Shown here one piece after another: positions 1 through 16,000 of a stretch of DNA of 64,000 nt (positions within the stretch are counted from its first letter, which is position 1; each line of letters begins with the position of its first letter). The stretch lies in assembly GCF_035582795.1 (NCBI RefSeq), contig NC_134365.1, positions 221,295,887 through 221,359,886 on the forward strand. The letters are read 5' to 3'. The notes beneath the pieces were generated by a model. That model saw nothing but the letters and a program-made list of their open reading frames with translations. It made no database searches and was not told the DNA's origin. The DNA comes from Mycteria americana (lineage: Eukaryota; Chordata; Aves; Ciconiiformes; Ciconiidae). The position numbers were made by a program, and so were the translations under genes.

Positions 1-308
1 CCCCAAAACAGAGCTGGGATCCCCAAGATTGGAATTTGGCATCCCAAAACACAGGTGGGAGCCCCAGGGTTAGGGTTTAGCACCCCAAAACAGAGCGGGG
101 AGATGCAGGATCAAGGTTTGGCACCCCTTGAAGGGAGCCAGGAGCCCCAGGGCTGGGGTTTGGCACCCCAAAAACAGATCAGAGAGCCCCAGGGCTGGGA
201 TTTGGCATCTGGACAGGCTTGGCCACAACTCCCCGTGAGAGACGAGACACAAGCGAGCAGCGTCCCCCCCTTCCCCACTCCTGGGGGGCTCATGCGGGTC
301 CCCCTCAC
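1..308 (-). other. P4HA3 intron 11 (partial) with degenerate minisatellite
   Basis: Sequence between the exon 11 donor (GTGAGG at 303-308 on the minus strand) and the window edge. Bases 1-210 hold several degenerate copies of a unit of about 40 bp, centred on AGCCCCAGGGCTGGGGTTTG followed by GCACCCCAAAA. Apparent open frames here come from the repeat. No other gene is seen. Confidence 0.75.
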
Positions 309-3300
309 CTTAACCACGGGCACGCTGAAGTTGGCGTAGATGAAGGCGGTGGAGCCGCCAGCCTCCACTGCGCTCAGCTGGAAAAGGAGCAAAAATATGA
401 GCCATGGGTCTTCTTCTCCCCCCTGTGATATGGCTGCTTTGCATGGGGAAACTGAGGCATGAAACCTCCCTGGGTCCTCAACCACGTTTCCCTCGCTACA
501 GCATGGCAGAAACTCTTAAAATACTCTACAGACGTTGGCATTTAACACCCCACCACGGTCTGATTTAGGGTTGCCCTCACCCATTGTTGCCCTCACCCAT
601 CTCAAACCCTGTTCACTCTGAACCCTACTGATGACCAAGCAAGTGCACTCTCTCTGGGCGTGGAAATGAGGGAGGACTCACGTAGATCATGACCGTGGCG
701 ATCCTGTTGCCTGACTTCATTCTGTAAAGGGGGCTCTTCCTGGACTGCCCCAAGAGCGAGGAGGTGGGGACGGTCAGTCCCTTGCTGACGCGGCTTGGCC
801 TGGAGGCACCTCACGCCCAACAGCTCCAAGCTGCCCCCAGGGAAATCCCACCCTCTCCCTTCTTTTCTCTCCCTCCCTCCTTCCTTCCCTCTTCCCCACC
901 TCCTTGCTCCCTCCCTCCCTTCCCAGGAATATCCCAGGCACCAACCCAGGGATCACCATCCCGGGACCGCTCGCCTCTCCCCTGAGGACCATCCCAGGGT
1001 CCACCTCAGGAACATCTCAGGGACCATCCCAGGGACCACCTCCAGGAACATTTCAGGGAATATCCCAGGGATCATCATGGGGACACCCCCAGGGACCATC
1101 CAGGGACCTCCCTTGGGCACCATCCCAGGAGCACCATGGGGAGCACCCAAGGGCCCATCTCCAGGAACATCTGAGGGACCACCCCAGAGACCAGCCCATG
1201 GATCACCTCCAGGAACATCCCAGGGACCACCCCATGGTCCACCTCCAGGAACATCTCAGGGACCACCCCAGGGACCATCCCAGGAGCATCCCAAGGACCA
1301 TCCCAAGAGCACCACAGGAACCACCCTGGGCACCACCCCACGCACCACCCCATGATCCACCCCATGAACCACCCAGGCAGCTCCCTGACCGTGGCGTGGT
1401 CGAAGTGTGGCTCGTAGTGGCCTCCCAACCCATAGTTGACCACCTGTAGGTACTCGGCATAGGGTGGCCGCAAGTCCAGGCCGGTGACGGCAGCGATGCG
1501 CTGCTCCAACGCCCGCACCACCGGGTCGGCCGTGTCCTTCAGCCAGGCGCTGCGGGAGCACCCCACCTTCAGCCCCCCCAAATTCACGCGTGGCTGGGTG
1601 TGGAGGACCCAGGCCTCCCCAGCATGGTGTCACTGCCACCTTGGTGGTGGCAATGGGGCCATGGTGGTCCCGCTGGCTGGAGGCCAAGGGATGGGGTGGC
1701 TTCTACCTCTTGCTTATCCGGTACTCGGCTTTCTGCTGCTTCTCCCCGGAGGCGACCACGGACCTCTGCAGCTGGAGGACACATGGTGGGGGTTGGATGT
1801 TGCTGCAGATGGGGACCCCCACACCAAGCAGGGACCCCAGTCAGGGTCTAAACTGGGGGTTATACCACCTTCCATCACCAAGGTGTCCCACCAGGGTGAT
1901 GGAAGCAGTGATAGCAGTTGGATCCAAAGCGGTTGGGTGTCACCAAGTCAAGCCTGGCTAGGAAGGGGTTTAGGTGCATGCATGGACCTGGTTTCTCCCC
2001 AAAATCTTTTGGGGGGGCTCAGATGGAGCTAAGATGGGCTCATCCCCCCCCAGGGTCTCGCTGCAGAAGGCTTTGGCTAAGCCCTGGCTTAAAACCCCTC
2101 CTATCTCTGCATGCTCAGGGTGGTCCACCCTGGACCACCAGCTCTTGGGGCACCCTCCTCCAGGAGAGAGACATCCCTGGGGACGGGGCCAGCTCACCCA
2201 GGGCCCTGCCAACCCCTTGATGGTCTCAGCCTCGGCATCACTGATGAAATCGTGGTACAACGCCACGTAGGGTCGGATCCGGACCATCTCCTTCTTGGCA
2301 GGCTGGAGAAGGAGGTAAGGGCTGCCGTTGGTCTCGTAGGAGCAGCTGAGGTGCGGGAGATGCTCTGGGGCTGGCTGGGGAGAGAGAGGACCAAGGAGGG
2401 TGTGAGAGGTGGGACAGCAGTGGGGTGGGGGACCATGGCACTCCCCCTGCCAGCCCCACCTGCCCCCCCGGGCGCTGGCACAGCTCCTCGTAGGCGTCAC
2501 GGCTCTGCAGACGGGTGCCGTTGGGGCGTCGCAGGGGTCCAGTGCTCACCGCCGTCCCCATCTCCAGCAGCTTCTCGTACTTGGCCACGTTCCTCACCAC
2601 CCTTTGGTTACTGGGATCTGCCGGAGAAGTGGTGTCACCCAAAACACCGTGTCCCCATCACCCCCCTTCCCTGGCATCGGTCCCTGGACAATTGCCCCAT
2701 GTGGGGGCAAGAAATGGGGTGAAGGAGGCTGGTGCCATGCAGAGGTGATGGGGACACCCCAAAACCTCTCACCTCCTCCTGCTGCATCCAAGGTTGCCCC
2801 ACGTACCGTAGTGGAGAAACTCCCTGGAGAGACTCAAGGCGTGGGAGATGTTTCCAGCCTGGATGGGGGGAGCGGAGCCCGTGAGCATCCCCCTGCCCAC
2901 GGTTCGGCTCCACCGGGCACCTGGGTGATGGGGATGGGCCTCACGGCCGTACCATGAAGTAGGAGAAGGCAAGATGGTCCAGAGCATCCTCCAGGCTGCT
3001 CCGGTCCTCGGGGTTCCAGCTGCCATAGGAGAGGCGGAAGAGGCCGACGGCCTCCTCCAGCCAGGCGATGGAGTGGTAGTAGTCGCCCGTGTCATAGGCC
3101 ACCTGCAAGGCAGCGCACCGCCTGTCCCCACCCTGTCCCATGCCATGCCGTCCCCTCCCCTCCTGTACCATCCCATCCCATCCCATCCCACCAACCCCCC
3201 ACCCTTATCCCATCCCGACCCATCCCATCCCCTTCTCATCCCAGCCTATCCCCATGACCATCTTCATCCCAATCCCACCTTTACCCCCTCCCATCCTGTC

Positions 3301-6050
3301 CCTACCCTGTCCTGTCCCATCCCCATCCCCTGTCATCCCATCCCATTGCAATCCCCACCCATCCTGTCCCATCGCATCCTGTCACTTTCCTACCCCCATC
3401 CCCTCCCACGCCATCCCCATCCTGTCCCATCCCTTCCTTTCCTGTCCCATCCTCATCCCCATCCCCATCCCTCCTGCTCCATCCCCATTTCCATCTCCAT
3501 CCCCATTTCCATCCCCATCCCCATCTCCACCTCCATCTCATCCCATGCCATGCCACGCCATGCCATCCTGTCCTGTCCTGTCCCATCTCAGAATCACAGA
3601 ATCGTATAGGTTGGAAAAGACCTTTAAGATCATCGAGTCCAACCACAAACCTAACAAACACTGCCAAGCCCACCACTACACCATGTCCCTGAGCACCACG
3701 TCTACACGGCTTTTAAATACCTCCAGGGATGGCGACTCAACCACTTCCCTGGGCAGCCTGTTCCAGTGCTGGACAACCCTTTCAGTGAAGTAAAATTTCC
3801 TAATATCCAATCTAAACCTCCCCTGGCACAACTTGAGGCCATTTCCTCTCATCCTATCACTTGTTACTTGGGAGAAGAGACCGACCCCACCTCTCTGCAC
3901 CCTCCTTTCAGGCAGCTGTAGAGAGCGATGAGGTCTCCCCTCAGCCTCCTTTTCTCCAGGCTGAACAACCCCAGGTCCCTCAGCCGCTCCCCATCAGCCT
4001 TGTGCTCCAGACCCTTCCCCAGCTCCGTTGCCCTTCTCTGGACACGCTCCAGCACCTCAATGTCTCTCTTGGAGTGGGGGGCCCAAACCTGAACACAGCA
4101 TTCGAGGTGCGGCCTCACCAGTGCCGAGTACAGGGGGACGATCACTGCCCTAGTCCTGCTGGCCACGCAGGACTAGGGAAGTCCTCATCCCATCCCACCC
4201 CACCCCACCCCACCCTGTCCCATCCTATCCCACGCTCTAACACTCCATCCCAGCTCTGCAGTTGACCCTCAGAGCACTCTGCCCTGAACACAAACCTCTA
4301 TCAAAGCACCCAAATCCCCTCCCAGGATTTACAGACCCCCTTTCACCCCCGGGCAGGGGCCGACCCCGTACCCATCCGGGATGCTGGGGCAGGAGGTCTC
4401 CCCCAGGCCACCGGCTTGGCTCTTCCCTTCCTCGAGCCACAAAGCAGCAAGAAGCCCCGTTATTTGGGTGAGAGCCCAGAGGCGATGGCAAACGGGCAGA
4501 TGCCTGTGGGCTGAGTCAGAGGGGCCCCTCCGCATCCGTGTGGGAAGAAAACCCAACGTCTATCCCTATGGAAGCAACATCCCGGGCTGGAAAAGCTTTG
4601 TGGGGGGCTGACGGGGTTTGCCCTCACCTTGCCCACGTGGAAGCAGTCATCGGCGGAGAGGGAGACGCGCCGGCCGGGGCTGTAGAGGGGTGGGGGGCCG
4701 GTGCCGGCTCGCTGGAAGATGCCGTTGGCCATGCCCTTGACGCTGAGCGCGTAGACGTCCTGCAGCCGCATCAGTGCCCGGGCAGCTCCATCCAGGTCCT
4801 CGGCTCCAGGCAGCTCCTGCTCCACCTCTTTGAAGCCAGCATGGAGTGCTGAGGGCGGGTAATGGGGTGCATGGAGGGGGATTAATGAGCTTTTGGGGTG
4901 CAATTGCCCTTACCAGCCCTCCTCCATTCCCGGGGACCCCACATGCTGCTCCTCCATCCGTTCCCCTGCTCCTCCATCCATTCTCCTGCTCCTCCATCCA
5001 TTCCCCTGCTCCTCCACCCATTGTCCTGCTCCTCCATTCATTCTCCTGCTCCTCCACCCATTCTCCTGCTCCTCCACCCATTGTCCTGCTCCTCCACCCA
5101 TTCTCCTGCTCCTCCACCCATTCCCCTGCTCCTCCACCCATTCCCCTGCTCCTCCACCCGGTCCCCGTCACCTCCCGGCTCTCCCCAGCTGACAGAGAGG
5201 ACACCCAGCCGGGCATCCCCCCCATACCCTGGATGTTCTCGGTGGCCTCGTCGCTGTAGACGACGTTGGGCCAGTCGGAGTGGAGACGCTTGATGAGGCT
5301 GAAGGCCAGCAAGGGGTTGTCCACCGAGGCCGCAGGGTCCTGGTGCAGCGCCTGGACCTTCTCATAAAACCTACAAGGCACCCACGGGGTGACACTTTGA
5401 GTGATGCTCCTGGCTGGTGACACCCCCGGGGTGGGGTCTGGGGCCTGAGCCCCCCCCCCCCCCCCATAGTTGGGCAGCTTTGCCCCAGCGCCCACTTTTG
5501 GCCAAGCCAGAAAGCGGGGAAACCCCCATGAAGGTGGGTAGACCCCATCCCTGGTGGGTACGTGGGGACGGCCCTCGGCGATGCTGTGACCCACATCCCC
5601 AGGCCCCACCCTAGGCTTTTGGGGACCCACATCCCCCGACATGGCTGGCGGGGGGGGGGGGAATGGGCGACGTCCGGGCTGTGCTCCTCACCCCCCCCCC
5701 CCCATGCCCCAAGCTCCTATTTAGGGGCACCCCCAAAAATTGGGTGCTTGGGGAGGTGGGTTACCCCCCCCCCCCCCCCCCCCCCGCCAGGGCAGCACCC
5801 ACCCGTGGGGCGGGGCGGTGAGGGCTGGGGGCGGCCGGTACCTGGCGAGGCGGCGCAGGCGGGCGCTCTCCTCCCTGAGGTAAGCTCGGAGCCGGCGGAG
5901 CAGGCGGCCCTCGGAGCCCAGCGCCCTGCGGACGCTCAGCATGGCCGTGTAGGTCTCGGCCGGGGCATGGGGCGGCAGCAGGGCCAGCAGCACCCCCAGC
6001 CCCAGCACCCACGGCCCCCCCGGCACCCCCGGCACCCCCAGCCCCCGCAT
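309..6050 (-). CDS. P4HA3: P4HA3, prolyl 4-hydroxylase subunit alpha-3 (exons 1-11; 3' end outside window)
   Basis: Catalytic alpha subunit of collagen prolyl 4-hydroxylase, which hydroxylates proline in X-Pro-Gly repeats in the ER lumen using Fe2+, 2-oxoglutarate, O2 and ascorbate. Exons read on the minus strand, all phase-consistent: 5842-6050, 5228-5370, 4628-4848, 2953-3102, 2807-2858, 2460-2617, 2198-2374, 1707-1771, 1390-1549, 682-744, 309-377. They sum to 1467 nt, 489 codons. Residues 1-31 form a signal peptide. The middle is the peptide-substrate-binding helical domain ([11 protein letters not shown], then [11 protein letters not shown]). The dioxygenase core includes [13 protein letters not shown] and the iron-binding HxD of HFDHAT (His440, Asp442). 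The distal iron His and the 2-oxoglutarate Lys lie in the last ~55 codons, before base 1. Alignment from memory to human P4HA3 (544 aa) is colinear and clearly better than to P4HA1 or P4HA2. No frame damage is seen. Two introns are filled by minisatellites. Confidence 0.96.
836..930. repeat. Polypyrimidine tract
   Basis: Almost pure C/T on the plus strand (CCTCCCTCCTTCCTTCCCTC-type runs) in P4HA3 intron 9. Low-complexity sequence with no coding value. Confidence 0.8.
950..1378. repeat. Minisatellite in P4HA3 intron 9 (unit ~12/24 bp)
   Basis: Tandem, imperfect copies of CCAGGGACCATC and CCAGGAACATCTCAGGGACC, runs of 12-bp subunits often paired as 24 bp. The array reaches to within about a dozen bases of the exon 9 donor at 1389. 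Frames without stops on both strands (rich in Pro/Gly/His or Met/Trp/Gly) are a by-product of the repeat. Confidence 0.88.
3125..3588. repeat. CATCCC-type simple/minisatellite repeat in P4HA3 intron 3
   Basis: Run of CCATCCC, CCCATCC and CCTGTCC words with no long fixed period, just upstream (in transcription) of P4HA3 exon 4 and abutting the 3' end of a CR1 element. Low complexity, non-coding. Confidence 0.85.
3590..4168 (-). mobile_element. CR1 LINE, 5'-truncated, minus strand
   Basis: A copy of about 580 bp of the 3' end of a CR1 non-LTR retrotransposon. On the minus strand it encodes C-terminal reverse-transcriptase remnants (e.g. [20 protein letters not shown], then [15 protein letters not shown]) and ends at the plus-strand left side with the CR1 3' octamer repeat, seen as AGAATCACAGAATCG. 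It is 5'-truncated, as most CR1 copies are, and sits in P4HA3 intron 3 in the same orientation as the gene. Two reading frames are needed to cover the RT region, so the copy is inactive. It is not a host gene. Confidence 0.95.
4148..4178. repeat. Perfect 12-bp inverted repeat at CR1 5' junction
   Basis: CCCTAGTCCTGC at 4148-4159 and its exact reverse complement at 4167-4178, with a 7-base spacer. The left arm is CR1 sequence; the right arm lies at or beyond the truncated 5' end of the element at 3590-4168. Confidence 0.85.
4940..5162. repeat. 20-bp minisatellite in P4HA3 intron 2
   Basis: About 11 tandem copies of a 20-bp unit, CTCCTCCACCCATTGTCCTG, with small variants. Because 20 is not a multiple of 3, every frame reads through the array with a 20-residue period, giving long spurious frames on both strands. 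It lies between P4HA3 exons 2 and 3. Confidence 0.95.
5371..5841 (-). other. P4HA3 intron 1
   Basis: Between the exon 1 donor (GTACCGG) and the exon 2 acceptor (CCTTGTAG). Holds several poly-C/poly-G runs (5450-5466, 5651-5661, 5692-5703, 5767-5785) and no other gene. Confidence 0.8.
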
Positions 6051-6130
6051 CCGGCCGCGCCGCCGGGAGAGGCCGGGGGAGGGCGGAGGGCGGAGGGCGG
6101 AGGGGCGGGGAGGCCCCGCCTGGGGGGGGG
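5786..6130. promoter_or_regulatory. P4HA3 CpG-rich first exon and promoter
   Basis: GC- and CpG-rich segment covering the P4HA3 start codon (complement of 6048-6050) and its upstream flank, with a GGGCGG-type Sp1-like box in the 6070-6115 stretch. No TATA box is apparent. The transcription start would lie a short distance above 6050; this is inferred from composition. Confidence 0.55.
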
Positions 6131-6189
6131 GGGGTGTGGGGGGAAGGGGGGTGCCCCGGATCCGCCACGCTGGCTGGGGGGGGGTGGGG

Positions 6190-7210
6190 GGTGCTGGTCC
6201 CCATCCTGCCGGTCCCCATCTTGTCTGGCCCCGTCCTGCCTCGGACTCATCCTGCCTGGCCCCATCCCATCCTCTCCCTGTCCCCGTCCCCTCCTGCCCC
6301 CATCCTGCCGGTCCCCATCCTGCCTTGGACTCATCCTGCCTGTCCCCATCTTCCCTGTCCCCATCCCATCCTATCCCTGTCCTCCTCCTGCCTGCCCCCA
6401 TCTTCTCTGGCCCCATCCTGCCTGTCCCCATCCTCCCTGTCCCCCTCTTGCCTGTCCCCATCCTGCCTTGGACTCATCCTGCCTGTCCCATCTTCCCTGT
6501 CCCCATCCCATCCTATCCCTGTCCTCCTCCTGCCTGCCCCCATCTTCTCTGGCCCCATCCTGCCTGTCCCCATCTTCTCTGGCCCCATCCTGCCTGTCCC
6601 CATCCTCCCTGTCCCCCTCTTGCCTGTCCCCATCCTGCCTCGGACTCATCCTGCCTGTCCCCATCTTCCCTGTCCCCATCCCATCCTATCCCTGTCCTCC
6701 TCCTGCCTGTCCCCATCTTCTCTGGCCCCATCCTCCCTGTCCCCATCCTCCCTGTCCCCTCTTGTCTGGCCCCATCCTGCCTCGGACTCATCCTGCCTGG
6801 CCCCATCCCATCCTGTCCCTGTCCCTGTCCCCTCCTGTCCCCATCCTGCCGGTCCCCATCCTGCCTGTCCCCCTCTTGCCTGGCCCCATCCTGCCTCGGA
6901 CTCATCCTGCCTGTCCCCATCTTCACTGTCCCCATCCTGCCCGGCCCCATCCCATTCTATCCCTGCCCCCATCCCCTCCTGTCCCCATCCTGCCCATCCC
7001 CCCCGCGCCTGTCCCCCTCTTGTCTGGCCCCATCCCATCCTATCGCTGTCCCCATCCCCTCCTGGCCCCATCCTGCCTCTCCCCATCCTCCCTGTCCCCA
7101 TCCTGCCTGTCCCACTCCTGCCTGTCCCCCTCTTGTCTGTCCCCATCCTGCCCTGGCCTCATCCTGCCTGTCCCTGTCCTGTCTTGTCCTGTCCCCATCC
7201 CACCTATCCC
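6190..7210. repeat. ~1-kb minisatellite upstream of P4HA3 (15-bp basic unit, higher-order pattern)
   Basis: Dense array of CCCCATCCTGCCTGT-like 15-mers. They are arranged in longer blocks that recur with the marker words CCTCGGACTCATCCTG and CATCCCATCCTATCCCTG, i.e. a higher-order repeat. C-rich on the plus strand and G-rich on the minus. Frames of several hundred codons are open on both strands only because the unit has no stop codons. Confidence 0.93.
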
Positions 7211-7640
7211 AGTGGGGTGAGGGTGGTGGGTCGGGGACGTCCCGCTGGGTTCCCACCAACACTGCGGACGCTTTCACACCCTGGAAAAACCCCTTTTTGC
7301 AGAAAACCTCATCGGAGCGGGCGCTCAAGTGCCCCATCTGTGGGGACAGCACCGTGATGGCACCCCAAAATACACCCCCCTGCCAGCCGAGTGTCCCCAA
7401 CCCTCAGCCCCCCTGGAGCCTCCCGGGGAAAACGGGCCAGAACCGGCTGAATTCCCAAAGGAAAGGCCAAGAGAAGTTGGGAAATGTGGGTGCACCTGCG
7501 CCAAGGGGCCGGGGGGGTCCAGCCCTGTCCTGCACCATGGCGGGGGTGATGGGTGCGAGGACATGATGGGTGCGAGGACATGATGGGTGCAGAGCTTGGG
7601 GCGAGCATTGCTCTGAGATCCTCCACTCCAGGGTCTGGCT
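7211..7640. other. Unique spacer between two minisatellites
   Basis: Non-repetitive stretch between the P4HA3-side and defensin-side arrays. Contains a short frame with a CPICG word near 7330, but with no start, splice or domain context. A 20-bp tandem duplication (GGGTGCGAGGACATGAT-type) lies at about 7551-7590. I recognise no gene. Confidence 0.55.
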
Positions 7641-7649
7641 GCCACGTTC

Positions 7650-8385
7650 CATCACTCAGCCATGTCCCATGTCCCCGTCACTCAACCATGTCCTTTGTCC
7701 CCATCATTCCATGTCCCATCGCTCAGCCGTGTCCCATGTCCCCGTCACTCAGCTCTGTCCCACGTCCCCATCACTCCACCATGTTGCACGTCCCCATTGC
7801 TCAGCCATGTTCCATGTCCCCATCACTCAATGTCCCACGTACCCATCGCTCAGCCATATCCCACATTCCCATGCTCAGCCGTGTCCCATGTCCCCGTCAT
7901 TCCATGTCACATGTCCCCATTGCTCAGCCGTGTCCCATGTCCCCATCACTCCATGTCCCATGTCCCCATTGCTCAGCCATGTCCCACGTCCCCGTCACTC
8001 AGCCATGTCCCACGTCCCCATCACTCCATGTCCCATGTCCCCATCACTCAGCCATGTCCCACGTCCCCATCACTCCATATCCCATGTCCCCATCACTCAG
8101 CCATGTCCCATCCCATTGCTCAGCTGTGTCCCATGTCCCCGTCACTCAGCCGTCCCACATCCCCATCATTCCTTGGGTTGCATGTCCCCATCGCTCTGCT
8201 GTGTCCCATTTCCCCATCACTGTCGCTTGTCCCCATGACTCAGCCGTGTCTCATGGCCCCATCACTCCATGTCCCATGTCCCCATCACTCAGCCATGTCC
8301 CACGTCCCCGTCACTCCATGTCGCATGTCCCTGTCACTCAGCCATGTCCCATGTCCCCATCACTCCATGTCATGCCCCATGTCCC
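7650..8385. repeat. Minisatellite 5' of the defensin-like gene (unit ~23-26 bp)
   Basis: Roughly 28-30 imperfect copies of a unit reading CATGTCCCATGTCCCCATCA plus a CTCAGC or CTC tail. It ends ~280 bp before the start codon of the beta-defensin-like gene at 8668. Open frames through it (Ser/Pro/His/Val-rich) are repeat artefacts. Confidence 0.93.
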
Positions 8386-8629
8386 CACATCACACCCCCC
8401 CCCTTCTTCCCCCCCCCCAGTCACCCCAAGAAGCCGGACAAACACCCCCCCCCCCAACTCCTCAACCTCCCTCACCCCCTGCCGCCTTCACACGGGGCCC
8501 GTCCCTGTCCCCTGGGTCCCCTGGGTCCCCGCTGGCAGCTGCCGGAGCAGGCCAAGCCGTCGCCCGTCGCTAAACCCCATCCAGCAGCACCCTCCACCCC
8601 CAAACCCCACCTCCCCGGTGCCAAACCCC

Positions 8630-8637
8630 ATAAATAC
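8630..8637 (+). promoter_or_regulatory. TATA-like box or 5' splice context of the defensin-like gene
   Basis: ATAAATAC sits 31-38 bp before the ATG at 8668. It could act as a TATA box with a very short leader. Alternatively, CAGCCCCAG at 8637-8645 could be a splice acceptor joining an upstream non-coding exon, the arrangement I recall for avian beta-defensin genes. Sequence alone does not decide. Confidence 0.4.
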
Positions 8638-8667
8638 AGCCCCAGGTGACACCGGTGTCCCCACACC

Positions 8668-8979
8668 ATGCCCGTCCCACGCCTGGCCCTGCTCCTGGCC
8701 CTGCTCCTGGCCACCGGCCCCCGGCACCCCACCGCCGCCATCCCCTGGGGACCCCCTGCCGATGCCGTCCCCACCAGCGCCCGCCCTTGCGCCCAGCACA
8801 CCGGCCGCTGCCGCCGCGTCTGCTTCGCCCACGAGACCCAGCGGGGACATTTTGGTTGTCCTCGGCGCTACCGGTAAGATGGGGACACCGGGAGAGCCCC
8901 CCCTCCCCTCCCAACCCCCCCATGACCTTGGTGGGGGGGTGTCTTCTTCTCTTCCAGGTGCTGCGTGCCCAAAATGTAG
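8668..8979 (+). CDS. Beta-defensin-like antimicrobial peptide, two coding exons
   Basis: Exons 8668-8873 and 8958-8979, joined across an 84-bp GT-AG intron (GTAAGATG ... CTCTTCCAG), encode 75 residues. Residues 1 to ~17-24 are a signal peptide (LALLLALLLA core). A Pro/Ala-rich pro-segment follows, then a mature region with Cys at 41, 48, 52, 64, 70 and 71, i.e. C-X6-C-X3-C-X11-C-X5-CC. It contains GRCRRVC, then GHFGCPRRYRCC. From Cys41 on it has seven Arg, one Lys, one Glu and three His, so it is strongly cationic. This is the beta-defensin six-cysteine layout; the conserved Gly before Cys4 is present. The ATG context ACACCATGC is favourable. Signal and most of the mature peptide share one exon, and the last exon carries the final Cys pair. 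Expected role: secreted host-defence peptide. By cysteine spacing it resembles teleost beta-defensins and avian ovodefensins as I recall them. It sits outside the known avian defensin cluster. A pseudogene or chance frame is unlikely, since splicing exactly restores the CC pair and a stop. Confidence 0.8.
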
Positions 8980-9096
8980 CAGCAGGATGGACCGGGAGGC
9001 GACGATGCTCGGGGCCATCCCATATCCTTCCCCAGCAGGGTCATCTCCCTCAGGATTTTCCCAATATTGGCTGGATTTCACCCGTTTTGGGAGGAT

Positions 9097-9102
9097 TTTA
9101 TT
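9097..9102 (-). terminator. Candidate NEU3 poly(A) signal
   Basis: TTTATT on the plus strand reads AATAAA on the minus, ~610 bp beyond the NEU3 stop. It is the only canonical minus-strand hexamer I found between 9,000 and 9,716. Confidence 0.4.
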
Positions 9103-9541
9103 TGGCAGCACCATGGGGACGTGAGGTCGCCGTCACCGTCGGGATGCCACAACCTGTCCCCTATGGAGCGGAGTAAACCCCCCCCAAGATCTGAGTGCTT
9201 TTTCCCATGGGAATATGGGGCAAAACGCCGCCTGAACCAGGAAACTGAAGAAAACAGAATTTAAAAAATGGTAAAAAAGGGGAATTCTCTCCCTGCCACG
9301 GGGGGGTGGAGGCAGAAATCGCTGATATTTTAAACTAAATCACTACTTTTGGGTATTCTTCCCCAGGGGACTGGCTGCTCTCAGTGGCACCTTCTGCTTT
9401 TTTGCTGCTACCGGGTGAAAAATGCTGATTTTTGGTGAAGCAGCGGCGTTTCAGATGCCATGCCGGCATCCCCCCCCGGCCAACCCACAGCAGATCCTCC
9501 ACCCCCTCCCCAGGTCACCAACAACATCTATCTGACGGGTG

Positions 9542-9569
9542 ATTAAAAACCAAGCGTTAATTAAATAAA
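9542..9569 (+). terminator. Candidate plus-strand poly(A) signals
   Basis: ATTAAA at 9542-9547 and AATAAA at 9564-9569, about 565-590 bp after the stop of the defensin-like gene. They could end its transcript, whose 3' UTR would then overlap that of the convergent NEU3. Confidence 0.4.
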
Positions 9570-9715
9570 AGCTACGTGATGCTGAGCCTGCTGCGCATCC
9601 GAAATGTCCCTGGTGAGGTCCCGGCATTGCCGCGCTCACCGGCTCTGGCTGCCGGTGGTCGGGAGTGACACCACCCCACCCCCACCCCCCCTCCCCTCCC
9701 CCCAATGGTTCCATT

Positions 9716-11174
9716 TTAAAAAGCTTTGAGGTTCTGCTCGCCGTGGTCGGAGGTTTCCAGGGTGAAGAGGCAGAAGGCGATTTCCTCGCAGGCGCTGGTT
9801 GTGCCGCACTCGAACAAGCAGCCGAAAACACCGCCAGGGCAGACGGCCAGGTCAGAATAGCCGGCCGGCCCTGGGTGCAGCACCCATGGGTGCCGCCACC
9901 CCGCCCCGTCCAGCGGCGAGGGGTTGAGATAGATGCCCAAATCACGCCGGCGGTGCCGGTCGGTGGGGTGGGAGTAGAGTAACCAAGTCGGTGCATCCCC
10001 GGTGCCGGTCGGCGCGGCGAAGCTCACCACGCTGCCCTGGCACCCCCGCGGCGGTTCGCCCAGCGCCTTGCACCGCGCCGAGCGCTCGAACCGCAGTCCG
10101 CGGTCGGTGCTGAACGCCACGGCCCGGCAACCCCGCAACGCTCGGGCGTTGCAGTAGAGTAAGGGCTGGTGGGCATCGCTCCCACCGATTTCGGCTACCT
10201 GGCACTCGCCGGTCTGCCCGCCGCCGACCAGGGCACCCTTGTGCCAGCTGCGCCCACCGTCGTCGCTGTAGAAGACGAGGGCGTGCTGCCGGGTGCAGCA
10301 AGGCAGCGGCACGACCCCGCACAACCACCCGTGCACGTAGTAGGTGTACGCCGGCACGACCAGGCGGCCCGAATCCAGCTGTACCCCGTGGCCCGGCCCC
10401 ACGGCGAAGGTGGCCCAACGGGACAAGTCGGTGCCGATGGCTTCGTCCGTCACGTCCCGCAGCGGGGTCCAGCTGTGGCCACCATCGGCGCTGGTGGCAT
10501 AGCAGAGGCGAGCGGCGCTGCAGCCCCTCCAGATTTGGCATCGCTCCGTCTCTCCCCGCTCGACGCAGATGCAGAAGAGGAAGACGGTGCCGCTCGTCGC
10601 ATCGTAGAGGGGACAGGGGTTCATGGTGCGGCGGCCGGGCAGCGCCAACGCCGACAGCTCCTCCACCGGACCCCACTGCCGGCAAGGAGGAAAACGGGGC
10701 TCAGCCGCGGGATGCACCGGTGTCGCTGTACCCCGAAGCCAGCCGGCGTTGCTCCCGGGGATGGAGGCCGCAGCTTGTTCCTACAGCCCAGACTGGTTTT
10801 TTACCTCGACCGAGGAGCCGTGCCGGTGGCCCCGCCGCAGCGCCAGGTACTTGGCGTCCTTGTCCCTGGCCGAGGAGCGCTTCTCGGCGAAGGCCAGGAA
10901 GGTGGCGGCGGGGGGGATGTAGAGCAGAGCCGGGATGCGGTAGGTGACCCCGCTCGCCTCCCGAAATAGCGTCTCCCGCGGGAAGATGAGCGGGGATCCC
11001 GGTGGCGGGGGGGGGGGGCTCTCCCCGCCATCCCCCCACTGCGGGCAGGGTGGGAAGGTCAGATGGTAAAGGGTTAAATGCTTGCAAAACTGGGGGGGGG
11101 GGGGCTTCATGCCCCCCCAAGATGGGGGGAGAGGGACGAGGACTCACCTTGAGGCAGGTGATGGCCTGGGACAT
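9716..11174 (-). CDS. NEU3: NEU3, plasma-membrane ganglioside sialidase
   Basis: Exo-alpha-sialidase that removes sialic acid from gangliosides at the plasma membrane. Three coding exons on the minus strand: 11148-11174 (9 codons, ATG in GCCACCATGT), 10805-11038 and 9716-10675, all phase 0, giving 406 aa against ~428 in human. Visible hallmarks: the YRIP motif (Arg43, catalytic triad), PGRRTMNPCP, HWATFAVGPGHG-equivalent WATFAVGPGHGVQL, and Asp-boxes SADGGHSWT and YSDDGGRSWH plus a degenerate STDRGLRF. RPRE-type surroundings and the nucleophile Tyr in GYSDLAV, then FGCLFECG, close the propeller. Matches human NEU3 from memory across the whole length, without the Ser-rich insertion the human protein has after the VVSF segment. 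Residues 10-30 are a Pro-rich run (six consecutive Pro) not conserved in human. The gene is very GC-rich. Start choice rests on the strong Kozak context and the following donor; an untranslated upstream exon is possible. Confidence 0.96.
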
Positions 11175-11269
11175 GGTGGCCTCCCCGAGGTCCCCGCTGG
11201 GGCCTGAGCTGGGTGGAAGAGGGGGGAGTGAGAGCGGAGCCCCTCGGCGGGGTCACACCCCGCTGTCCT

Positions 11270-12115
11270 GCCCGGCCATGCTGTCCCCATGTCCCTCTGT
11301 CCCTCTGTCCCGCAGGGGCTCCCCTCTGCCCACGACCCTATGTCCCCCCCAGTGCCACCCCCCAGGCTGTCCCCAAGGGCTCTGCACCCCCAGGGCCCCC
11401 AAGCCCCCATCCCCTTTAGCCCCCCCGGTGTCCCCAGCCCAGAGTCCCTGTGCTGTGCACGCCCCAGGCCCCGATCCCCCCCACGCACCCCCCCATTCCC
11501 CATGCACCCCCAATGCCCCCATGCCTCCCCTCCTGCCTGGATCCCCCCCTGCACCCCCCGTAGCCCCAGTCCCCTACACCCCTGCATGCACCGCCCCCCC
11601 CCATGCATCCCCCCATGACAGGGCCACCCCCCCGCGCATCCCCCCGCACCCCTTGTGTCCTGTGTCCCCCCCCACACCCCTGCAAGCACCGATCTCCCCG
11701 TGCACCCCCAATGCCCGGTCCCCCCCGGATACCCCCCCTTGCACCCCTATAGCTCCACTCCCCTATGCACCCCCCTTGCACCCCCCCGCACCCCTATAGC
11801 CCGACTCTCCTATGCACCCCCGTGCACCCCTATAGCCCGACTCCCCTATGCACCCCTCCTTGCACCCCTATAGCCCGACCCCCCTACACCCCTGCGTGCC
11901 CCGATCCCCCCGTGCCCCCCATGCCCGGCCCCCCCCATACATCCCCCCGCACCCCCCCAGCCTCACTCCCTGCACGTACCGATCCCCCCCGGTGCCCCCC
12001 CATGCCCAGACCCCCCCCCCCCGCACCCCCTTCCCCTACACCCCCGCATCCACTGTCCCCCCAGCCCCTCCGCACCCCCCCCCGCACCCCGCTCCCCCCA
12101 GCCCCGCTCCCCCCC
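11270..12115. repeat. C-rich minisatellite in NEU3 5' region
   Basis: Imperfect tandem words such as GCACCCCTATAGCCCGACTC and CCCCATGCACCCCC, with a period of roughly 30-35 bp in 11,740-11,890. It lies between the NEU3 start codon and a CpG island. Proline-rich open frames on the plus strand are repeat-derived. Confidence 0.85.
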
Positions 12116-12225
12116 GCTCCACCGGCCGCCGCCGCCGCGCCGGGTCCGCCCCGCTCCGCCCCTTCCTGGCAGCTCCGGCCCGGCCCCGGCGCTGGAGCGG
12201 GGGGGGGGGAGAAGCGATTTAAGGG
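12110..12225 (-). promoter_or_regulatory. CpG island, probable NEU3 promoter/5' UTR exon
   Basis: CCGCCGCCGCCGCGCC and CCCGCTCCGCCCC-type CpG-dense sequence about 1 kb upstream of the NEU3 ATG. It lies just before a sharp change to AT-rich sequence at ~12,290. Inferred from composition and position only. Confidence 0.45.
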
Positions 12226-12299
12226 GACTCCCTCCCCGGCCCTGAGCCGCGAAACACCCCAGAGATGCTCGGGAACACGTTTGACGTCTGTTCTTCCCT

Positions 12300-13012
12300 T
12301 TTATTGAAAAAAAAAAAAAAAAAGGCAAAACCCCCCCAGAATATTTTTTTTTTAGAAAACGTCATTTTATCAAGGGACGCGCGGGACGAGAGATGTCGAT
12401 AGGAACAGGCGGGGGGACAAAGAGGGACGGTCACAGCTCGGAAAAGCCCTTCGCTTTCCCTGTTTTCGCCTTGCAGATAAGCTTCGTGGCCGAACATACA
12501 GAAATAGGTTTGTCTTATCCCCCCCACAACACATAAAAGGCTCTTCTGTAACCCCCCCCATTAGATAAATACAAAAATAAAGAAAACTTGTTTGTGAGTT
12601 GTTTTACAGAAGGATTTTGTCCTGAATTCCTAACACAAAAGGGAAAGGTGAAATGCAAATGGTAGCCCCCCCCCCCCGACACTACATGGCACGGAGCTGT
12701 TTGGTAAAGCACCGCCAGGTAAAAACGGAGGAAGCTGGGGCAGCGTCGGTGACAAGTGTCCCCTCCCGAGGGTCCCCAGGGGCAAATCCTCCTCCGAGGT
12801 CTGCCCCGGAGGTGGCAGAACCAGCAAGGCAGGCACACAGGCCAAGGCTTACTGTAGTTTCCAAAAATCTTGGATCCAAAATTAAAAATCCCGCTTCTCC
12901 AAAATGGAATAGGATTTCAGGACAAAAACAGAGGCAAGGATTCACTTTCTTTGCTATTTTACTTTATTGGTGTTAATTTAGCACGTTCCCAGGAGGCAGG
13001 CGGTGTCAGAAA
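12300..13012 (-). other. SPCS2 3' UTR (inferred)
   Basis: Sequence after the SPCS2 stop. Minus-strand AATAAA hexamers occur at 12,963-12,968 (only ~45 nt after the stop) and 12,300-12,305, so long and short 3' UTRs are both possible. Base composition changes abruptly from C-rich repeat to ordinary AT-rich sequence at the distal site, which favours it as the end of the transcription unit. Confidence 0.5.
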
Positions 13013-16000
13013 TCATTTGGTTTTCCTCTCCAGGGCCAGACTATCGTGCAGCTTGGACACCTCCGGCTCGTAGGCCTCCATGACTAACGTCCCGTTGTTA
13101 TCGAAGAATTTTGCGATGGATTTGGTGAACTCGGCTTCCCTCTGCTGTTTGGTTTTCCCGCTGATGAAAGTCAGCTTCAGGGTGTACTTGTCATCAAACC
13201 TGCGGGAAGGGCAGAGAGATTTCAGAGCAGAATTTGTTAAGTCTGGCTCAGCTGAGACGCCAACGAAAAGCTGACGAGAAATCTTCATCTTTGTTCAGGG
13301 TTAACCCCCCGGGAGCGGAGGTCCCCACACACAGTACCCCAGCAGCCACAATACGCAGGCGTTAATTATAACACAATTAAAGATTTTTATACTCTTGATG
13401 ATTAATTCTCCTCCCCCCCCCATTTAAAGAGAAGTGAAACGTGAACATTTGCGGCAGATAACCACTTGCCATCGCTCCCGTTTCTAGACTGGGATGTCAA
13501 TTTTGATGGAGTGAAAGAGATTTGTAGGTATAAAAATAAAGGAAAATATTTAGGGTGATCCTACGGAGAGATACGGATGGCAATGGTGCACACAAGACCG
13601 GCGAGCTCGGCCACAGAGTAATAATATTCTGCGGTGAATATTAATCACGAGTTGCCTGGGAAGCCGCAAAGATCACGGCACGGCAGCCGATCCTTTGCAG
13701 AAAGCTCACGTCCCCGCTGCAGACACACCAGTATTGCAGAGACACCAATTTTTTCCTCCATTTTCTTTACGAGTTATCCGAAACGCAGCTTTTCTGCCCC
13801 GCCGTGGAGCGTGCGGTAGCTACAGGCGGACGCGGCACAGACAAACCGAAGCCGTGCCGGTACAGCACCGCCGCCGCACTCCCTAAGCCCGGGCTGCCGG
13901 AGCAAACGATACCGTTTGAGACTGGAGGAGAGCTGCCAAACGTCGTCGGGGTCCATCCCCGCGGGGTCTTTTCTGTGAGCTACGAGAAAAATACTCTTTT
14001 CTTTGTATGAGGTATAGATCGTCAGGATTCCCATCATCACAAAATATGTGCCAAAAAAAGTTAAGGAAATGAAGAAGTTGCAATTAGAAGTAGAAGTTAG
14101 GCAGAGAAATTGCTTGGATCCCCTCAGAGGCCATCGTTTAACCACCTCTCATGACATTACCATTCCAAACAGGATGCTTGGCTGATGCCTCGTTAGCATG
14201 AGAAATTAAATAATTATTGGGATGCTTTCTTAACTCTTTGCCGTTGCACAAGAGCATTAATCGATGCCTGGAAGGGGTGGGGAAAGCGACAGCTCCCTAA
14301 CACACTTTCCTGAAAGGGATTTCTCCAGCCACATAAAACGCTTCATTCATGAAACCATGAAGTAAAGCGGAAATCACAACAACAAAATACAGTTTTCAAT
14401 TATTTTGCTAAATTTTTGGAGCAACATCTGTTGGGAGATAGAGGGGAAAACGTGAGCCCAAACGAGCCACAGAATTAATCGCTGCGCATTCCTCCAAAGC
14501 GCAGATCAAGCAATTAATCTTTCTCATTTTTGGAATGAAATAATTTTTAAGTGCTGCAAGACAAATTATCTCAACGTTCGCGCTGAAAGCCAACCAAGAA
14601 CTGTAGCCTGGAACAACAAAATGACTAGCCCAAGATCACGCAGCCGTTAGCAGTACGGTGACTCCCAGGCTGGCAATAAGCTTCCAGGCTACCAGTTCAC
14701 GCTGCCTCGCTGGTACCATCAAAACCGCCCTTGAAAGCGGGCCCGTCGGCAGCTCTTGGAAAGCACCGCTCATCTGTCACCTACGTTTGGGTTATAAAAC
14801 CTCTGCAAGCATCTATCTTGCTAGAGGAGCTGCAGGGAAATCAGTGCCACGCTGACCCTCTGAGCCCAAACAGAAAAAAACCCCACCCAGCTGTGGTGGA
14901 ATACTGGAAATCTTAGAGTTGACTTCTAAATAGAGTGGACATCTAAATGTTTAAACCCTGATTTGTAGCGCTACGCTTCAAAATGCGGCGTCTGCTCCTC
15001 TTTGGCGGAGAATTACCTCCGTTTTACTCTTCACTCTTGGTATCTGATCTGTCATATTAGGAAAGAGCAGATGTCTCTAACCAGGCTATAGGTAGAATTA
15101 AAAAAAAAAAAATAACCAAACCACAATACAAATCCCCTAAAGCTTTCAGGGGCTGATCTTCAGTTTGAGATTAACACACTTGAGTGGAGAATTCTCTGCG
15201 CAGTTGGTGTCCGAGATCTGGGACATCACCTCAACGCAGTCAGGAGCCTGGGGAGCAGATCAGCTGCCCAGGGAGCTGCTGAGTCCTCTGACGTGAGCTG
15301 AATTGCCGTCCAGGCTTCCGCGCTGCTGCAGGGGAAGGCTGGACCCCCAGATCACCCACATTTAGGTGCGTTACACCCAGACAGGCAGGAATTTTGCCAT
15401 CAGAGTTTTCATGTGATTATCAGCTGATCTCCACACCATGGGCAGTAAAATTCCCACAGGGCTGAAAATGGGAATACAGAGAAGGGTTTTGTTGTGCTTT
15501 ATGGGGAAAATAAAACCCCTTTTGGTATAAATGAGACAACATCTGTAAAGGATATGATACAACACAAAAGGCAAGAACAGGTTTGGATTCAGGAAAAGGG
15601 TGCAGGTAATCCCAAATCAAAGCTACAATCGCGAAGAGACAAGAGATTGTGCAGATGATGAGGCGACCGTCGATCAAACGGAAATTTTCGACGTACTTGT
15701 ACTTCTCCAGGAGAACCTGCGGGAGAAACACGCAGCCGAGTTTATTTTGGGCTTTTCATACATTTTACAAACTGCTTCTGGAAAGGATTTAGATAAAACC
15801 ACCTCGATTCTACAGGAAAACTGAGCAGAAACTTTATACCAAGTTAATGTCTGCATCAGACGTCATAATAATTGCTGATACTCCGAGCCCAAACACTGCT
15901 CTAGCCACGGGAATCACAAGAGACGCTACAGAACCGGCATGGCTACGGGCACTTCACAATCAAACCAAAAAAGTCTACAGAGTTTTTAAACTCAACGTAG

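Follow-up and report, generated by a model that had tools for sequence, protein, structure and literature searches.

A probable fish-type beta-defensin gene outside the AvBD cluster of Mycteria americana

Beta-defensins described in birds and fish

Published characters are given here as they stand in the available parts of the papers cited. Two clusters of avian defensins are described, which in the chicken both lie on chromosome 3 (PMC9363672). A survey of 53 bird genomes, which used chicken queries first and profiles afterwards, collected 714 beta-defensins, named after chicken AvBD1-14, with the consensus C(4-7)C(3-6)C(7-10)C(5-6)CC (PMC4571063). Ovodefensins have the spacings C-X5-C-X3-C-X11-C-X3-CC (5-3-11-3) and C-X3-C-X3-C-X11-C-X4-CC (3-3-11-4), and the same paper quotes a relaxed beta-defensin consensus, C-X4-8-C-X3-5-C-X9-13-C-X4-7-CC (PMC2846878). 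CpoBD13, an AvBD13-type defensin of a crocodile, uses histidine and arginine to bind phosphatidic acid, and it is most effective in acid (PMC9977887).

In fish (cysteines are numbered Cys1 to Cys6, shortened to C1 to C6 within motif formulae), the listed features are GxC2, GxxGC4, a conserved glutamate (E44, four after Cys3), an arginine or lysine after Cys2 and, in group 2, PRRY/LR; a glycine stands directly before Cys4, whereas in human and bird defensins it often stands two before (PMC8116387). The motif CPRRYK/R between Cys4 and Cys5 is kept across fish beta-defensins generally (PMC4690011). In type 2 this stretch reads CPRR(Y/L/F)K, and the basic motif characterizes types 2 and 3 of fish, except in one flounder (PMC8231796). 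Cod Defb has its cysteines at positions 31, 38, 42, 54, 60, and 61, that is, a spacing of 6-3-11-5, with conserved glycines at 36, 50, and 53 (PMC3636224).

Sea bass BD2 has exons of 58, 112, and 22 bp, with cysteines at 30, 36, 40, 52, 58, and 59 (PMC8231796). In cod, as in several other fish, Cys1-Cys4 are encoded by exon 2 and Cys5-Cys6 by exon 3 (PMC3636224), and a paper on grouper likewise places Cys1-Cys4 in exon 2 and Cys5-Cys6 in the last exon. A phase-1 intron between leader and mature peptide is common to beta- and big defensins (PMC7203481), and the division of bird and fish genes into three exons has been ascribed to species-specific intron insertions (PMC8231796).

Gene model and chromosomal setting

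The window analyzed here is a 64,000-nucleotide stretch of Mycteria americana DNA (C1:221295887-221359886, the prefix denoting the contig) in a genome of 1.35 Gb, whose AvBD cluster lies on another contig, C3. A preliminary description had placed in it a two-exon gene for a 75-residue, strongly cationic precursor with a signal peptide, and the two exons, their splice sites and the cysteine positions were exactly reproduced (Table 1). Joined at CG|G, the exons encode an intact product of 75 amino acids (MPVPRLALLLALLLATGPRHPTAAIPWGPPADAVPTSARPCAQHTGRCRRVCFAHETQRGHFGCPRRYRCCVPKM) whose frame has no internal stop or frameshift; the splice context is CCG|GTAAGA ... TCTTCTCTTCCAG|G, with a pyrimidine-rich CAG acceptor. 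The cysteines occupy residues 41, 48, 52, 64, 70, and 71, giving C-X6-C-X3-C-X11-C-X5-CC (6-3-11-5), which falls within the relaxed beta-defensin consensus quoted in PMC2846878. By hydropathy alone the leader is signal-peptide-like (maximum 3.2, mean over 10 residues), and about 16 residues separate its putative end from Cys1. The estimated charge also agrees with the earlier account: a simple calculation for a 38-residue mature form, with a predicted start, gives +7.9 at pH 7.4 and +10.3 at pH 5.5. As weak support for the gene, CpG is largely preserved in exon 1 (22 observed against 26.7 expected) and depleted in the intron (1 against 8.8). An alternative upstream leader, spliced to an acceptor near 8782, was set aside, as the junction would be in phase 2 rather than the usual phase 1 and an in-frame ATG with a leader is already present.

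Table 1. Features of the defensin locus in the window (position 1 is the first nucleotide of the window).
Feature	Position	Strand	Remarks
P4HA3 exons	1..5687	-	TPR_P4H at 2944-3204; P4Ha_N at 4463-4909; outer limits from ORFs only
TATA-like box ATAAATA	8630..8636	+	about 30 bp 5' of the ATG; consensus match only, putative promoter
Coding exon 1, 206 bp	8668..8873	+	signal-peptide-like leader, pro-segment, Cys1-Cys4
Signal-peptide-like segment, residues 1-24	8668..8739	+	from hydropathy; end and cleavage site predicted
Defensin core of exon 1	8788..8871	+	C41 (8788), C48 (8809), C52 (8821), C64 (8857), then PRRY
GHFGCPRRYR-encoding segment	8845..8873	+	final codon finished by exon 2; 9/10 against triggerfish fragment
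Intron, 84 bp, GT-AG, phase 2	8874..8957	+	splits the codon directly before Cys5; teleost position
Coding exon 2, 22 bp	8958..8979	+	Cys5-Cys6, VPKM, stop
Poly(A) signal AATAAA	9564..9569	+	consensus motif, putative
NEU3 coding exons	9719..11143	-	BNR_2 (E 4.2e-30) on 9719-10780; 10784-11143 assigned by eye, without Pfam match
SPCS2, three ORFs		-	Pfam SPC25

The location between NEU3 and P4HA3, as first proposed, is backed by Pfam matches on the minus-strand ORFs: six of the eight neighboring ORFs submitted were given a family, the other two (10784-11143 and 1973-2545) having none, and a piece of 1078-1629, in the P4HA3 region, has a weak prolyl 4-hydroxylase match (E 0.028). The defensin gene and NEU3 are arranged tail-to-tail, and P4HA3 lies upstream of the defensin gene in divergent orientation. 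An AATAAA on the minus strand at 9097, a possible NEU3 poly(A) signal, falls within the likely 3' UTR of the defensin gene, so the 3' UTRs of the two genes may overlap in antisense. Between the putative promoter and P4HA3 are GC-rich minisatellites at 7649-8387 (units of about 26 and 49 bp) and at 6277-7186 (143 bp). An Rfam search of the window gave no match. In human 11q13.4 several genes lie between P4HA3 and NEU3; in the Mycteria window P4HA3, NEU3, and SPCS2 are adjacent within positions 1-16000, which points to a rearrangement in the interval relative to the human order.

Against Pfam the predicted protein scores 14.5 bits with PF13841, below the cut-off of 22.2, and the match covers positions 2-30 of the 30 in the model; PF00711 is not among its matches. 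In searches of the genome of the bird itself with PF00711 and PF13841, which proceed exon by exon and thus without the CC pair, the gene in the window is not among the matches. For a fish group-2 member, too, the Pfam-A match, to the defensin-beta-2 family, was below significance (PMC8116387). NCBIfam gave no match. Among 21 sequence matches in the PDB, all weak, the best five are to defensins, with big defensins from E 0.021 and beta-defensin 104 at E 0.033, and the sixth is to a non-defensin. A paralogue search of the same genome (E up to 10) returned 10 matches including the gene itself, and the cysteine frame is in none of the other nine. Scans of viral and prokaryote contigs revealed no related gene, as expected. 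At E up to 10, PF13841 matches the genome 15 times, and one match, at C1:147531535, exceeds the cut-off. This match (CLLSTGSCKTSCFEDNIYVYLCILPRDSCC at C1:147531535-147531624, minus strand) has a 6-3-9-6 six-cysteine frame that is not cationic and has no visible leader; it reaches 24.4 bits with PF13841 as a protein and E 0.127 in the genome search, and it may be a chance frame or a remnant.

The expectation by chance was assessed with a loose frame, defined as a signal-like start, four spaced cysteines and CC, the latter contiguous or following a plausible intron. The real window holds 18 four-cysteine cores, one of which, that of the defensin gene, passes. Dinucleotide shuffling of the window gave 6 passes in 9,731 shuffles; this rate, near 6e-4 per window, corresponds to some 13 per 1.35 Gb and may understate chance about threefold, because the shuffles average 5.6 four-cysteine cores against the 18 of the real window. 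Since about 13 chance frames are expected per genome, the cysteine frame alone is insufficient proof of a gene. The matches to fish defensins at the level of residues and intron do exceed chance.

Fish-type characters and alternative origins

Five features taken from PMC8116387 were scored: GxC2, an arginine or lysine after Cys2, a glutamate four after Cys3, GxxGC4, and PRR[YLF][RK] after Cys4. The fish side of the comparison consists of a 10-residue fragment, these listed features, cysteine positions and exon lengths. The predicted peptide has all five features, GxC2 being scored without regard to the hydrophobic middle residue noted for fish (here x is arginine). Of 500,000 shuffles with the cysteines fixed, none had five and one had four. 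Its GHFGCPRRYR shares 9 of 10 residues with GHHGCPRRYR, a group-2 fragment from triggerfish, a likeness reached in 4 of 2,000,000 shuffles, and the pattern CPRR[YLF][KR]CC appeared in 193 of 2,000,000. All shuffles preserve the composition of the peptide itself; the counts represent strong support rather than exact probabilities, because the scoring was chosen after the motif had been seen. The 16 AvBDs of the same genome have at most three of the five features (the AvBD13-like gene at 4156539, and 4166063): GxC2 is found in 14, the residue after Cys2 in 3, the glutamate in 3, and GxxGC4 and PRR in none; CPRR[YLF][KR]CC is likewise absent from all 16. A glycine stands two before Cys4 in 15 of the 16 and directly before it in none. 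The string CPRRYK is also present in human beta-defensin 2, between Cys3 and Cys4, so the CPRRY motif can arise elsewhere.

The intron provides a character of a different kind. From the published lengths, the last intron of the sea bass genes is calculated to be in phase 2, splitting codon 59 of BD1 (before C60) and codon 57 of BD2 (before C58) (PMC8231796). The intron of the Mycteria gene is also in phase 2, splits codon 69 directly before C70, and thus lies at the fish position; this gene and sea bass BD2 both have a last exon of 22 bp. The AvBD cluster was scanned for frames divided by an intron of 60-3000 bases with a pyrimidine-rich acceptor. Of its 40 four-cysteine cores, 16 have a contiguous CC in the same exon and none is joined to a CC by splicing; the intron is therefore at the position of fish genes and not at that of AvBDs. 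Counting against a fish-type reading, the leader and Cys1-Cys4 share the single open exon 8668-8873, so that the leader-mature intron is absent and the gene lacks the three-coding-exon layout of teleosts.

Searched exon by exon at E up to 0.001, PF00711 matches the genome at least 9 times, always at C3:4.156-4.290 Mb in the AvBD cluster, and 16 contiguous six-cysteine frames occur in 160 kb of this contig, spanning C3:4156539-4290110. The gene at one end, C3:4156539, is AvBD13-like, its 31 residues all aligning with crocodile CpoBD13 (E 5e-9); the gene at the opposite end we take to be AvBD14-like. In 10 of the 16 AvBD exons a splice donor follows five bases after the CC, in 4 an in-frame stop follows it, and 2 are otherwise; the AvBD13-like and AvBD14-like genes have their stop within the same exon as the CC. 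An HMM of the 16 AvBDs scores the window peptide at 7.6 bits, which 231 of 2000 shuffles with fixed cysteines equal, and therefore indicates no specific AvBD similarity. The preliminary description had considered the gene an isolated beta-defensin rather than a standard AvBD, and closer to teleost beta-defensins. The first view is borne out by its position outside the C3 cluster, by its Cys3-Cys4 spacing of 11 against the 7-10 of the AvBD1-14 consensus, and by the division of its cysteines 4+2 between exons instead of their confinement to one. The second is strengthened by CPRRYR, GxxGC4, and the teleost intron position, all noticed since.

Four other origins were weighed. It is unlikely that the gene is a dispersed and diverged AvBD13 copy from the C3 cluster that became fish-like through convergence. 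Among the 16 AvBDs the nearest is indeed the AvBD13-like C3:4156539, which shares X6, X3, and CRRxCF and has three of the five fish features, and the alignment score of 61.0 is reached in only 13 of 1000 shuffles with fixed cysteines (in 40 of 1000 if the highest score among the 16 is taken). However, this gene has a spacing of 6-3-9-6 and not 6-3-11-5, its glycine stands two before Cys4 with neither GxxGC4 nor PRR, and its six cysteines lie in one exon that ends in CCR and a stop. A distinctly improbable origin is an intact-looking defensin relic whose expression has ceased or whose counterparts in relatives are pseudogenes; the lone copy, the missing leader-mature intron and the Pfam score below the cut-off would suit it, but the frame is uninterrupted, the splice sites are canonical, a TATA-like box and an AATAAA are in place, and the motif is still close to that of fish.

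Still less plausible is an ovodefensin that has moved from its usual place and is produced in the oviduct for the egg. The resemblance to ovodefensins noted in the preliminary description stands in part: X3 and X11 are shared, and the gallin genes, like this one, are described with two predicted exons and putative TATAA boxes. The part that does not stand is the Cys4-Cys5 spacing, which is 5 here and outside the published 3 or 4 (C4-X3/4-CC; PMC2846878), and the published ovodefensins lie on chromosome 3 near the AvBDs. Finally, a chance open frame within a GC-rich stretch, for which one could cite the further frames open here, the 13 or perhaps more loose frames per genome and the leaderless frame at C1:147531535 as a possible parallel, is very unlikely, its probability being negligible beside five of five fish residue features, 9 of 10 identities in the fragment and the intron position.

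Interpretation and comparison with known systems

The best explanation, in which we have good confidence, is that the window contains a working gene, apparently present in one copy, that encodes a secreted fish-type beta-defensin and in this bird lies outside the AvBD cluster. It is a real and probably functional gene, at a new avian locus. The leucine-rich leader would direct the precursor to the secretory route, after which the leader and a short proline-rich pro-segment would be removed. The remaining 37-38 residues could then fold into a three-stranded sheet with disulfides Cys1-Cys5, Cys2-Cys4, and Cys3-Cys6. The arginine-rich segments GRCRR and CPRRYR (with a charge of about +8 at pH 7.4 and about +10 at pH 5.5) would be expected to bind anionic microbial lipids and permeabilise membranes, and the peptide might signal to leukocytes. 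As to origin, the gene would descend from an old fish-type gene of vertebrates and would have lost the leader-mature intron; it may represent an ancient line of defensins that has survived unnoticed.

The preliminary description had suggested that such a gene was previously unlisted, and the literature text and the available parts of reviews and surveys contain no prior description; this novelty concerns the literature text alone and not sequence databases, which may hold a machine-annotated entry for the gene. In the literature text, CRRVCF, TGRCRRVC, AQHTGRC, and GRCRRVCF were not found, and GCPRRY with five variants was found solely in the triggerfish paper (PMC8116387). CPRRYK, among the matches listed, belongs mostly to papers that by title concern human defensins. 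CPRR and GVCR are absent from PMC3978493, and PRRY, CRRVC, CRKVC, and PRRF from the main text of a Komodo survey. Searches of the literature text for beta-defensin with NEU3 or P4HA3 yielded nothing relevant by title, the NEU3 of one avian paper being a fragment of a DOI; no paper joined a defensin with two of XRRA1, SPCS2, and RNF169, and a synteny search likewise had no defensin paper among the matches listed. The survey of 53 genomes could have missed so different a gene because chicken AvBD queries started it (PMC4571063).

There is about an even chance that a fish-type orthologue, in single copy and separate from the AvBD cluster, is retained in birds and perhaps in other sauropsids, and that its CPRRY(R/K) and the intron before Cys5 date back to the ancestor of bony vertebrates. 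If so, such long retention would suggest a constrained role, for instance with a fixed target or receptor, and not an arms race. With a fish-type gene at a third locus, the count of avian defensins would change, and the AvBDs and ovodefensins could be rooted with an outgroup. Such a gene would also make testable whether the difference in the last intron between fish and birds reflects two lineages that coexisted in their common ancestor, and a bird gene with the fish intron position bears directly on the view that introns were inserted in a species-specific manner (PMC8231796).

Among known systems, big defensins (oyster, PDB 6qbk and 8bgk; E 0.021-0.023) resemble the predicted peptide locally, over CAxxxGxCRxxCFxHE, but it lacks the N-terminal hydrophobic domain that defines them (PMC7203481). 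AvBD13 and CpoBD13 share X6-X3, a RRLC/RRVC-F start and a cationic, histidine-containing sequence; in contrast, their second half is 9-6 and not 11-5, PRRYR is absent there, and the AvBD13-like gene of this bird has all its cysteines in one exon within the C3 cluster. In an alignment by eye, R17 of CpoBD13 corresponds to R50, R9 to A42, and H21 to A54, with H55 adjacent. The core has three histidines and its charge rises in acid, and a pH switch like that of CpoBD13 is only a partly supported lead, because the equivalent of H21 is missing.

The closest likenesses are to the two teleost groups, as described in the available text of the papers concerned. With group 2 (On-Def of Odonus niger, PMC8116387; sea bass BD2, PMC8231796) the gene shares X3-X11-X5-CC, GxC2, the basic residue after Cys2, the glutamate four after Cys3, GxxGC4, and CPRRY(R/K), as well as, by calculation for sea bass BD2, a phase-2 last intron before Cys5 and a 22-bp last exon that encodes CC and four residues. 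It differs in having 75 residues rather than 63, with a longer segment before Cys1, in lacking the leader-mature intron, and in the arginine before Cys2, which is hydrophobic in group 2; it is not filed in this group because its first spacing is C1-X6-C2 and not X5. With group 1 (cod Defb, PMC3636224; sea bass BD1, PMC8231796) it shares the identical 6-3-11-5 spacing, the three conserved glycines of cod (36, 50, and 53, corresponding to G46, G60, and G63) and the last-intron position, calculated for sea bass BD1 and agreeing with Cys5-Cys6 in the last exon of cod. The PRRY/LR motif, however, is described as absent from group 1 (PMC8116387), and the Mycteria gene is not filed there either because, despite X6, it has this motif as PRRYR. 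As far as its predicted sequence goes, the peptide thus mixes the marks of both, the X6 of fish group 1 and the PRRYR of fish group 2.
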